Shown here: in pieces, positions 7,011-10,163 of the stretch | Layout: each line of letters opens with the position of its first letter | How positions within the stretch are numbered: the stretch's first letter is position 1 | NCBI GenBank assembly: GCA_028287465.1 | Contig: JAQBPO010000064.1 | Coordinates: 1-64,000, forward strand | DNA: 64,000 bases | DNA from: Fibrobacterota bacterium | Lineage (GTDB): Bacteria > Fibrobacterota > Fibrobacteria > UBA11236 | Reading direction: 5' to 3' | Notes under the pieces: generated by a model | What the model was told of the DNA's origin: nothing | Databases searched by the model: none | Seen by the model: only the letters and a program-made list of their open reading frames with translations | Program-made: the position numbers and the translations under genes

Positions 7011-8237
7011 GTGAAGGGCAATGCAGTCATCGGGCAGTCGGGCGGGCCCACCTCCGTCATCAATTCCAGCCTCGCCGGCATCATCGAGCAATGCCGCCGC
7101 CTGGGCCTGGCCGACGATATCTACGGCATGAATTTCGGGATCAAGGGCTTCATGGAGGAGCGCCTGATCGACCTCGGCCAGCAGCCCGCCCACGTCATCG
7201 AAGGCCTCCGCACCACGCCCTCCTCGGCCCTCGGCTCCTCGCGCCACAAGGTCAAGGAGGAGGACCTCCCCCGCATCCTCGAAGTGCTCCGCAAATACGA
7301 TATCCGGTATTTCTTCCTCATCGGCGGCAACGACACCATGGACACGATCCATCGGGTCGAACAGTACTGCCGCGCCAACCATTACGAACTCCAGGGCATC
7401 GGCATCCCCAAGACCGTGGACAACGATCTGTTCGGCACCGACCATACGCCCGGGTTCGCCTCGGCGGGACGCTCCAATATGCTGAGCGTGCGCCAGTCCG
7501 GCTGGCTCTTCCGCGACATGCAGCGCGTCGACCAATTCGTCATCTACCAGACCATCGGCCGCGACGCGGGCTGGCTGGCCGCGGCCACCGCCCTCGCCAA
7601 GACCAACGAGGACGACGCCCCCCACCTCATCTACATGCCGGAACGCGTTTTCGACGCGGACCGGTTCCTCGTGGACGCCCAGGAGTGCATCAAGAAATAC
7701 GGCTGGGTCTCCGTGGTCTGCGGCGAAGGCCTCAAGTACGCGGACGGATCGCCCGTGAGCGCCTCGATGACCAAGGACAATTTCCACAATACCGAGTTCG
7801 GCGCCATGGGCGGGGCCAGCGTCGGCCTCAACCTGCACAAGATGATGTCCAAGGTCACCGGCCTGCGCGGCGAATTCCAGATCACCGAGTCCCTCATCAT
7901 GTGCGCCATGGACCGGGCCCTGAAGCAGGACCTGCAGGAGGCCTTCGACTGCGGCAGGCATGCCGTGGATCTCGCGGCCAAAGGCGAGACAGGTCATATG
8001 GTCACGATCGAGCGCGTATCCAACGACCCTTATTCCATCCGGTTCTCCAAAGCCTCCCTGGGCGACGTCGCGGTGCGGGCCAAGCCCATGCCGGACTCGT
8101 ACATCAACGCCGCCGGGAACCATGTCACCGCGGAGGCCCTGGACTACCTGCGCCCCCTGCTGGGCGAAGTGCCCGAGTACGTGACCCTGGAAAAGAACTT
8201 CGTCAAGAAGCCCTCGAAACAGAAGGCGATCGCGTGA
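7011..8237 (+). CDS. pfp: Pyrophosphate-dependent 6-phosphofructokinase
   Basis: 408 residues from a GTG with GAAGGGG upstream. GQSGGPTSVINSSLAGI (residues 8-24) binds the phosphoryl donor, GGNDTMDT (105-112) carries the Asp that marks PPi-dependent rather than ATP-dependent enzymes, and PKTVDNDL (133-140) is the catalytic loop; TIGRDAGWLAAATALA follows. It phosphorylates fructose-6-phosphate with PPi, reversibly, in the cytoplasm. Its stop overlaps the next gene's start (GTGA), so translation is coupled to the deacetylase and then to the SIS isomerase. It is the first gene of that operon. Confidence 0.95.
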   Translation: MKGNAVIGQSGGPTSVINSSLAGIIEQCRRLGLADDIYGMNFGIKGFMEERLIDLGQQPAHVIEGLRTTPSSALGSSRHKVKEEDLPRILEVLRKYDIRYFFLIGGNDTMDTIHRVEQYCRANHYELQGIGIPKTVDNDLFGTDHTPGFASAGRSNMLSVRQSGWLFRDMQRVDQFVIYQTIGRDAGWLAAATALAKTNEDDAPHLIYMPERVFDADRFLVDAQECIKKYGWVSVVCGEGLKYADGSPVSASMTKDNFHNTEFGAMGGASVGLNLHKMMSKVTGLRGEFQITESLIMCAMDRALKQDLQEAFDCGRHAVDLAAKGETGHMVTIERVSNDPYSIRFSKASLGDVAVRAKPMPDSYINAAGNHVTAEALDYLRPLLGEVPEYVTLEKNFVKKPSKQKAIA

Positions 8238-9061
8238 ACCAGTTCCCCAAGAAAATCGTCGCCATCCACGCCCACCCGGACGATACGGAGATCTTCTCCG
8301 CCGGGACCATGGCCCTCATGCGGGCCAAGGGCTACGAGCTCGCCATCGTCACCATGACCCCCGGGGGCCTGGGCGGAATCGGTTCCACCGAGCAGGAAAC
8401 CATCGAGACCCGCAAGCGGGAGGCCCGGAAGGCCGCCGAGCAGCTGGGCGCGAAATACTATTGCTGCGAGGGCCGGGACGGCTATCTCTACGATACCGAG
8501 GCCCTGCGCATCCGCATCACCGAGATCCTCCGCCTGGAAAAGGCCGGTATCGTGATGACCCACCTTCCCTGGGACTACCATAGCGATCACCGCACCACCT
8601 GCAATATCGTGGAAGCGGCGACCATGGTGGCGACCCTGCCCAACGTGCCCTGCAAGGCCAAGCCCCTGGACATCACGCCCCTGCTCTACCATACCGCGCC
8701 CCTGGGATCCTCCGATCCCCTCGGCGGCAAGTTGCAATCGCCCCATTTCTTCGTGGACATCACCTCGGTGATGGACGTCAAGATGGAAATGCTCGGGCAC
8801 CACCAGAGCCAGATCGAACTCATGCGCGTGATGCACAAGATGGACGATTTCTTCGGCGAGATGAAGAAGCAGAACGAGTATTTCGGCAAGCAGGCGGGCT
8901 GCGGATACGCCGAAGCCATGTGGCAGCACCTGGGCGGCGGGTTCCAGAAGGATCCCGTCCTCCAGGAAACCATCGCCGAATTCGTATTGGACAATAAAAG
9001 GGCAAGCATCGGAGCGCGTTCGCTCCAGGGGAGCGCGTCGCTCCAGGGGAGCGTGGCATGA
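8234..9061 (+). CDS. PIG-L/LmbE family N-acetylglucosaminyl deacetylase
   Basis: 275 residues from a GTG inside the phosphofructokinase stop (GTGA). AIHAHPDDTEIFSAGT (about 10-25) is the HPDD zinc motif and LPWDYHSDHRTTCNIVEA (about 111-128) supplies the second metal His. Family members remove acetyl groups from GlcNAc-containing substrates, including free or phosphorylated GlcNAc and lipid- or thiol-linked sugars. Between a sugar isomerase and a phosphofructokinase, a GlcNAc or GlcNAc-phosphate substrate is the natural inference. The C-terminal residues (RSLQGSASLQGSVA) come from an inverted-repeat tract and are probably dispensable. Confidence 0.9.
   Translation: MNQFPKKIVAIHAHPDDTEIFSAGTMALMRAKGYELAIVTMTPGGLGGIGSTEQETIETRKREARKAAEQLGAKYYCCEGRDGYLYDTEALRIRITEILRLEKAGIVMTHLPWDYHSDHRTTCNIVEAATMVATLPNVPCKAKPLDITPLLYHTAPLGSSDPLGGKLQSPHFFVDITSVMDVKMEMLGHHQSQIELMRVMHKMDDFFGEMKKQNEYFGKQAGCGYAEAMWQHLGGGFQKDPVLQETIAEFVLDNKRASIGARSLQGSASLQGSVA
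9011..9054 (+). repeat. Alternating GGAGCG/CGCTCC hairpin tract over the SIS gene ribosome site
   Basis: GGAGCG occurs three times and CGCTCC twice, alternating, so that at least two mutually exclusive hairpins can form. The last AGGGGAGCG is the ribosome-binding site of the SIS gene (ATG at 9058). The tract also encodes the end of the deacetylase. It could tune coupled translation or be a small repeat insertion. Confidence 0.6.
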
Positions 9062-10071
9062 ATCTGACGGACGATAAATACTCCAAATACGCCTTGGTCC
9101 GGGAAATGCTCGAGACGGCGGACGTGATCCGGAACTTCGATCCGGAATGCGCCGCCGCCTTCGCCGATTCCCTGTCCCAGGAGAACCGCCTGTTCTTCAC
9201 GGGGGAAGGCAGCAGCCGCATCTTCCCCGCCAAGCGCGCCATGTACGAGGCCATGAAGACGGGCTTCCCCTTACCCATGGCCACCGATGGCGCCACCCAG
9301 GCCATGGAATACGATCTGTCGCGCCATGCCGTGCTGGCCGCGTCCAATTCCGGCAAGACCAAGGAAGTGGTCCGCCTCTTCAAGGGCCTCAACGCCAAGG
9401 GACATAAGCATACCTACGGCGTGATGGCCCATGCCGGCGCGCCCCTGGCGGAGATTTCCAAAAAGGCCCATGTGCTCACCTGCGGTCCCGAGAAGGCCGT
9501 GGCCGCCACCAAGAGCGTGGTGGAGCAGGCCCTGTTCTACCAGGCCGTGCTGGCCAAGCTCCGCAAGTCCGCCATGACGGAATTGCCCGCCGCGGCCGCC
9601 GCGGTCAAGGCGGCCCTGGAACTCAGCATCGACCCCGAATACACCAAGGCCGTCGCGAGCGCCCCGGTCATCTACTTCTCCGGCCGCAATAATGGCGTGG
9701 CCGAAGAGCTGACCCTCAAGACCAACGAGATCACGCGCAAGAAATCCGCCTTCCTCGAAGGCACCTACGCGGTCCACGGCATCGAAGAAGTCATGAACCC
9801 CGACGAGGTGGTGGTCCTGGTGGAACCCTTCCCGGACGAAGAAGAGAAGTTCAGCCAGGTCCTGAAAACGGGCGTGGGCATGCGGGTCATCGCCATCAGC
9901 ACCCGCCAGACCTCCTTCCCCACCATCCTCATCCCTTCCGTGAAGGGCTACGATGAATACGTCCAGCTGGCGGCGGGGTGGAACCTGCTGGTGGAAGTGG
10001 GCATCAGGCTGGGCATCGACCCGGACAAGCCCGTGCGGGCGCGGAAGGTCGGTAACGAGTTCTTAGGGTAG
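9058..10071 (+). CDS. GlmS/AgaS-like SIS-domain sugar-phosphate isomerase or deaminase
   Basis: 337 residues; the ATG overlaps the deacetylase stop (ATGA). Two SIS domains are visible: FFTGEGSSRIFPAKRAMYEA with AASNSGKTKEVVRLFKGL, then VIYFSGRNNGVAEELTLKTN with FLEGTYAVHGIEEVM. GPEKAVAATKSVVEQALFYQ is the GlmS-like substrate loop. There is no N-terminal glutaminase domain, so ammonia-dependent synthesis or, more likely in this context, catabolic deamination/isomerisation of glucosamine-6-phosphate to fructose-6-phosphate is expected. The product would feed the phosphofructokinase encoded first in the operon. Confidence 0.9.
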   Translation: MNLTDDKYSKYALVREMLETADVIRNFDPECAAAFADSLSQENRLFFTGEGSSRIFPAKRAMYEAMKTGFPLPMATDGATQAMEYDLSRHAVLAASNSGKTKEVVRLFKGLNAKGHKHTYGVMAHAGAPLAEISKKAHVLTCGPEKAVAATKSVVEQALFYQAVLAKLRKSAMTELPAAAAAVKAALELSIDPEYTKAVASAPVIYFSGRNNGVAEELTLKTNEITRKKSAFLEGTYAVHGIEEVMNPDEVVVLVEPFPDEEEKFSQVLKTGVGMRVIAISTRQTSFPTILIPSVKGYDEYVQLAAGWNLLVEVGIRLGIDPDKPVRARKVGNEFLG

Positions 10072-10123
10072 TCCATTCAATCGAATATCCGGGGTAGGGC
10101 ACAACGCTCTATTCCCGGCGAAG

Positions 10124-10163
10124 CGGCCGGGGGGTCCCCTCCTCCCCGGCCGTTATTATGTTT
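10124..10163 (+). terminator. Intrinsic terminator after the amino-sugar operon
   Basis: Nine-bp stem CGGCCGGGG (10124-10132) / CCCCGGCCG (10144-10152), followed by TTATTATGTTT. It lies 53 bp after the SIS gene stop. Confidence 0.75.

Follow-up and report, generated by a model that had tools for sequence, protein, structure and literature searches.

A conserved three-gene operon joining a pyrophosphate-type phosphofructokinase, a PIG-L deacetylase and a SIS-domain protein in a Fibrobacterota bacterium: a candidate module for amino-sugar catabolism

Results

A three-gene operon in a Fibrobacterota genome

The DNA analysed here (the window) is a stretch of 64,000 nucleotides from a Fibrobacterota bacterium (GCA_028287465.1, contig JAQBPO010000064.1), whose genome assembly is 5.8 Mb long and 98% complete. 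On its forward strand lie three overlapping genes for a phosphofructokinase (PFK), a PIG-L/LmbE-like deacetylase and a SIS-domain protein (Table 1). A first-pass annotation had joined the three by short overlaps, and a check of the sequence confirmed gene coordinates and overlaps exactly: the PFK gene starts with GTG at 7011 and shares GTGA (8234–8237) with the PIG-L gene, which in turn shares ATGA (9058–9061) with the SIS gene, ending in a stop codon at 10069–10071. This coupling is kept in the nearest Fibrobacterota copy (L004), found in the nearest named relative of the genome, a Fibrobacteres metagenome-assembled genome whose PIG-L protein is 80% identical; there TTGA replaces GTGA and ATGA is the same. 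The hairpin downstream of the SIS gene is weak evidence for a terminator when taken alone, because such sites are not above chance frequency in the region (three found versus 2.8 expected), and a scan for sigma-70 promoters found none.

The PFK matches PF00365 with 139 bits and, judged by its scores, is a member of the PRK14072 subfamily that uses pyrophosphate (PPi): its match to NF010675 (diphosphate--fructose-6-phosphate 1-phosphotransferase) reaches 411.9 bits, above the cut-off of 273, and its nearest PDB entries are the PPi-PFKs 3hno (E 1.4e-70) and 3k2q (E 1.6e-67). PPi and ATP enzymes are distinguished by Asp and Lys at two positions that are glycines in PfkA. D108 and K134 of the operon protein occupy these positions (G104 and G124 of E. 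coli PfkA), and both are invariant in 33 of 33 aligned homologues. Only one further PFK was found in the genome, a PPi enzyme of the long type (TIGR02477, 771 bits); a PPi-based step is thus normal for this organism. Three members of the genus each yield just one PFK match, with a score similar to that of the long-type enzyme; an ATP-PFK of this family is therefore possibly absent there, and parts of the genus may run glycolysis without one.

The second protein matches PF02585 with 91.7 bits against a gathering score of 28.2. An HxDD motif and a distal His, serving as metal ligands or base and separated by 97–148 residues, define the PIG-L superfamily (PMC4101496). In the operon protein this zinc motif is formed by H14, D16, D17 and H119 (spacing 102), which are invariant in 34 sequences. 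The best Foldseek match of its AlphaFold model (pLDDT 87.5) is the Pyrococcus diacetylchitobiose deacetylase 8bgn (E 2.9e-18), ranked before BshB and MshB with the Bacillus BshB-like structure 2ixd only slightly behind. A short palindrome, GCTCCAGGGGAGC, occurs twice in tandem at 9023–9052 within this gene, just 5' of the SIS start; the two copies encode the low-confidence C-terminal tail of the protein (residues ~259–275); the tandem palindrome was not found in L004 or in any other fetched locus.

The SIS protein (PF01380, 44.3 bits) gives an AlphaFold model with pLDDT 92.9, the best Foldseek matches of which are the Pyrococcus glucosamine-6-phosphate (GlcN6P) deaminases 2dec (E 8e-18) and 2cb0 (E 3e-17), closely trailed by GlmS and other deaminases. 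Its K221, E224, H240 and K330 correspond to K485, E488, H504 and K603 of GlmS; these four residues and the phosphate-binding S52, S53, S96, S98 and T101 are invariant in 36 sequences. Equivalence of K330 and K603 is based on an ungapped C-terminal alignment and on a HMMER alignment with NagB-II, MAFFT having placed a gap near the C-terminus. The C-terminal lysine is common to NagB-II and missing from E. coli AgaS and from FrlB, which makes an identity with either of the latter less likely; no AgaS-named NCBIfam model matched at E 0.01. The weak NCBIfam matches of the protein are topped by GlmD, NagB-II and GlmS, and by score it is outside the curated GlmD (NF041128, 38.5 bits versus a cut-off of 580) and NagB-II (NF046059, 37.6 versus 430) families. 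For both the PIG-L and the SIS protein, the likeness to an archaeal pathway seen in the folds agrees with the sequence profiles.

Conservation and neighbouring genes

The PIG-L protein, used to scan GTDB contigs, retrieved 39 loci (51–80% identical) from Bacteroidota, Spirochaetota, Planctomycetota (one), Chlorobiota (one) and Fibrobacterota (one record), a spread to be read as a lower bound because the scan pattern favours close relatives. Conservation of the gene order, which the first-pass annotation had proposed as a check, is borne out: 32 of the 39 loci contain the complete trio in the same order, and some of the rest stop at contig edges. L022, L033, L036 and L037 have no PFK gene next to PIG-L, so that PIG-L and SIS form the core; L038 has no SIS gene. 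The three proteins have evolved as a unit, to judge by their pairwise distances, which correlate at 0.83–0.90. Together with the shared gene order this speaks against a coupling by chance. Within the genus the operon is patchy (two of six genomes). In a tree of the joined proteins the Bacteroidota fall together, with one Chlorobiota record inside, and the two Fibrobacterota rows fall outside them; this tree does not support recent horizontal arrival from Bacteroidota and fits an ancient operon that has been lost in places or was transferred long ago. A plasmid search with the SIS protein returned distant SIS proteins only.

ROK-family proteins, mostly kinases and a few ROK-type regulators, are encoded in 33 of the 39 loci. 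Other neighbours are a FucP/GluP-like major facilitator superfamily sugar porter (eight loci) and glycoside hydrolases of families GH125 (six) and GH92 (four). A CBM9_2 protein without an obvious signal peptide also adjoins the operon in 28 of the 39 loci (L006:3745-4401, L013:4127-4789 and 26 more), and its role in a cytoplasmic module is unexplained.

NagA and NagB in operon carriers

The first-pass annotation saw no NagA or NagB gene. This stands for NagA, which was not found in the whole genome (best TIGR00221 match 21.9 bits, cut-off 225.65) or in 30 of its relatives, and for a stand-alone NagB in this genome; it does not stand for NagB-like sequences altogether, as two NagB-like/PIG-L-like fusions of 800–860 residues are present (Table 1). 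They score 95 and 84 bits against nagB (TIGR00502, cut-off 236.9) and 179 and 173 bits against PRK02122 (cut-off 384), below the cut-off in every case. Similar long frames occur in the relatives G002, G005 and G008, and two other members of the genus, one of them a carrier of the operon, have a stand-alone NagB over or near its full length.

A link between the operon and missing nagA/nagB, as the first-pass annotation predicted, was not seen. A NagA homologue (at least 174 bits) is present in 22 of the 39 carriers. Five carriers (G071, G076, G079, G081 and G093) have neither NagA (nothing above 35 bits) nor NagB (E 0.001), a soft absence since these are metagenome assemblies. GH20 hexosaminidases are encoded in this genome and in four of these five carriers. 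A further sample covered 247 genomes of the order to which G071 (the carrier of L014) belongs, with NagA called at E 1e-30: the association is positive, with NagA in 3 of 6 carriers versus 16 of 241 non-carriers (Fisher exact test, p = 0.007; the numbers are small and relatedness is uncorrected). As a separate observation, NagA was matched in only 19 of the 247 genomes, so in most of this order GlcNAc-6-phosphate (GlcNAc, N-acetylglucosamine) would be deacetylated by other means or not at all.

Table 1. Features of the operon and related genes elsewhere in the genome (G000)
Feature	Location	Strand	Basis
PPi-type phosphofructokinase (PRK14072/NF010675 subfamily), 408 aa	7011..8237	+	NF010675, nearest PDB, D108/K134
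PIG-L/LmbE-like zinc deacetylase, 275 aa, GTG start within PFK stop overlap	8234..9061	+	PF02585, Foldseek, HxDD+H
SIS-domain GlcN6P deaminase/isomerase-like protein, 337 aa, ATG overlaps PIG-L stop	9058..10071	+	PF01380, Foldseek, K/E/H/K
Terminator-like hairpin ~50 bases 3' of SIS stop	10122..10154	+	13-pair stem, 10 G-C
NagB-like/PIG-L-like fusion	G000:C100 (L079:5206-8136)	+	NagB-like N-terminal part, PIG-L-like C-terminal part
NagB-like/PIG-L-like fusion	G000:C10 (L080:502-2901)	-	NagB-like N-terminal part, PIG-L-like C-terminal part
Long-type PPi-PFK	G000:C77 (L082:3677-5545)		TIGR02477
BshB1-type deacetylase	G000:C83 (L081:3231-4043)		TIGR04001

Discussion

The operon is real, conserved and apparently undescribed, and its putative role in amino-sugar metabolism is well supported by the comparisons of its sequences. 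We consider it probable that its products act as one module in the cytoplasm and catabolise an N-acetylated hexosamine, likeliest GlcNAc or GlcNAc-6-phosphate, with chitobiose or fragments of N-glycans as its possible source. The zinc enzyme (PIG-L) would take the acetyl group off GlcNAc or GlcNAc-6-phosphate; the 6-phosphate would come, before or after deacetylation, from a ROK kinase, whose gene adjoins the operon in most relatives; the SIS protein would convert GlcN6P to fructose 6-phosphate (Fru-6-P) and ammonia; and the PPi-dependent PFK would feed Fru-6-P into glycolysis. The substrate, the direction, the order of deacetylation and phosphorylation and Fru-6-P as the SIS product are what we infer, and copies without PFK favour ordinary Fru-6-P as the product. 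The sequence of reactions suggested by the first-pass annotation (deacetylation, conversion to Fru-6-P, phosphorylation with PPi) thus survives as the best reading of the residues, folds, conserved gene order and ROK neighbours; its independence from NagA/NagB does not. The module seems to parallel NagA/NagB, not strictly to replace it, and by analogy may work like the archaeal Dac/GlmD chitin route. More tentatively, and with the balance somewhat against it, PIG-L might deacetylate GlcNAc-6-phosphate or the 6-phosphate of N-acetylgalactosamine (GalNAc) itself, in the manner of NagA but with an unrelated fold, and the ketose 6-phosphate might be phosphorylated by a dedicated PPi-dependent kinase, in an undescribed route spread over several phyla. 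If this is true, sugar catabolism would be partly paid for with pyrophosphate.

The closest known counterpart is archaeal. GlmD is the deaminase of the chitin route of Thermococcus and Pyrococcus, and PDB titles agree with this. The substrate of the Thermococcus PIG-L deacetylase is first diacetylchitobiose and later GlcNAc, with GlmA acting in between, in a pathway that leads to glucosamine (PMC6566704). As in this Dac-GlmA-GlmD system, a PIG-L deacetylase is paired with a SIS protein of GlcN6P deaminase type, here encoded together, and Pyrococcus Dac and GlcN6P deaminase are the closest solved structures to the two operon proteins. The operon differs in being bacterial, in consisting of three overlapping genes with a PPi-PFK added, in its ROK kinase neighbours and in an identity of only ~20–28%; inspection by eye of the adjoining genes revealed no GH35 GlmA. 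The first-pass annotation knew of no such pathway. This has to be narrowed, as the pairing of PIG-L with a SIS deaminase is known from these archaea; no description was found of the operon in bacteria or of its link with a PPi-PFK, open-access articles in PubMed Central having given nothing on it for PIG-L/LmbE combined with GlcN6P deaminase, SIS, PFK or ROK.

Several bacterial systems share parts of the proposed scheme. The net chemistry would be that of NagA/NagB (deacetylation, then deamination and isomerisation to Fru-6-P), and many carriers have both systems; neither NagA, an amidohydrolase, nor NagB, of a different fold, is homologous to the operon genes. NagB-II (Shewanella SO3506 type) and the isomerase domain of GlmS have the double-SIS fold of the operon protein, which carries the K/E/H/K set of GlmS; its distance from the NagB-II cut-off and its PIG-L partner deacetylase set it apart. 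Fusions of the PRK02122 type (glucosamine-6-phosphate deaminase-like protein), which have two distant relatives in this genome, likewise join a GlcN6P deaminase-like domain to a PIG-L domain, but they have the NagB fold in place of SIS and no PFK. The PFK itself falls in the same subfamily as 3hno and 3k2q, but it is an operon paralogue in a genome that also encodes a long-type PPi-PFK. For Chitinispirillum alkaliphilum, a member of Fibrobacteres, the published assignment is a conventional GlcNAc-6-phosphate deacetylase and GlcN6P deaminase (PMC4814513).

Some observations weigh against GlcNAc catabolism as the role of the operon. All model scores of the SIS protein lie far under the curated cut-offs (38 bits versus 430–580), the genes adjoining the operon in this genome include no recognised kinase, transporter or glycosidase, and Fru-6-P needs no dedicated PFK. 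Carriers also often hold a NagA and NagB-like pair, so another sugar may be the one that the module serves. The co-occurrence would mean that carriers specialise in amino sugars and have redundant routes, or else that a different amino sugar is handled by the operon. A module for GalNAc or another amino sugar, in which PIG-L acts on GalNAc or its 6-phosphate, SIS yields tagatose 6-phosphate and PFK is a PPi-dependent tagatose-6-phosphate kinase, would account for both the dedicated PFK and the coexistence with NagA/NagB, and the enrichment of NagA among carriers is in line with it. Most carriers examined have 2–5 PFKs, so the operon PFK is usually an extra paralogue; it could serve to raise flux or, if the sugar is GalNAc, could take tagatose 6-phosphate as substrate. 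E. coli AgaS, annotated for the galactosamine-6-phosphate deaminase step, is moreover a SIS protein. Yet the operon SIS protein resembles GlmD, NagB-II and GlmS and keeps the C-terminal lysine that AgaS lacks, no tagatose-bisphosphate aldolase was recognised adjoining the operon, some copies have no PFK, and the adjoining GH125 and GH92 mannosidases point to N-glycan or mannan. We therefore regard a GalNAc module as unlikely.

A little less likely still is salvage or remodelling of a special GlcNAc conjugate (for example thiol, inositol or peptidoglycan-derived), with the SIS protein as a deglycase or isomerase of FrlB type. Many GlcNAc conjugates are substrates of the PIG-L family (PMC4101496), deglycases such as FrlB belong to the SIS superfamily, and BshB1 (TIGR04001) is the strongest NCBIfam match of the operon deacetylase, though below the cut-off (112 versus 182.5 bits). 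However, a genuine BshB1-type enzyme (229.6 bits, above the cut-off) is encoded elsewhere in the genome, so that we reject the operon protein as the bacillithiol deacetylase and find the thiol-precursor role, named by the first-pass annotation as a possible refutation, improbable; FrlB lacks the equivalent of K330, and sugar catabolism is a better fit for ROK kinases and PFK. The separate BshB1-type gene is of interest in its own right, as it suggests bacillithiol synthesis in this Fibrobacterota genome.

The strong form of the first-pass proposal, in which the operon truly stands in for NagA and NagB and is carried for lack of the canonical genes, fits the lack of NagA in this genome and its relatives and the five carriers with neither gene, but is the least likely of all and is not supported as a general rule, given NagA in over half of the carriers, its positive association with the operon in the sampled order, the two NagB-like fusions, and the fact that most Fibrobacterota and most of that order are without NagA and yet also without the operon.

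The labels that family models give to these genes go no further than PIG-L deacetylase, SIS domain protein and PFK, and amino-sugar use is therefore easily overlooked, including in genomes without NagA or NagB. If confirmed, a catabolic module for GlcNAc or a similar N-acetylated hexosamine would give the archaeal deacetylase/deaminase logic a counterpart in bacteria and would be a case of amino-sugar catabolism linked to pyrophosphate.

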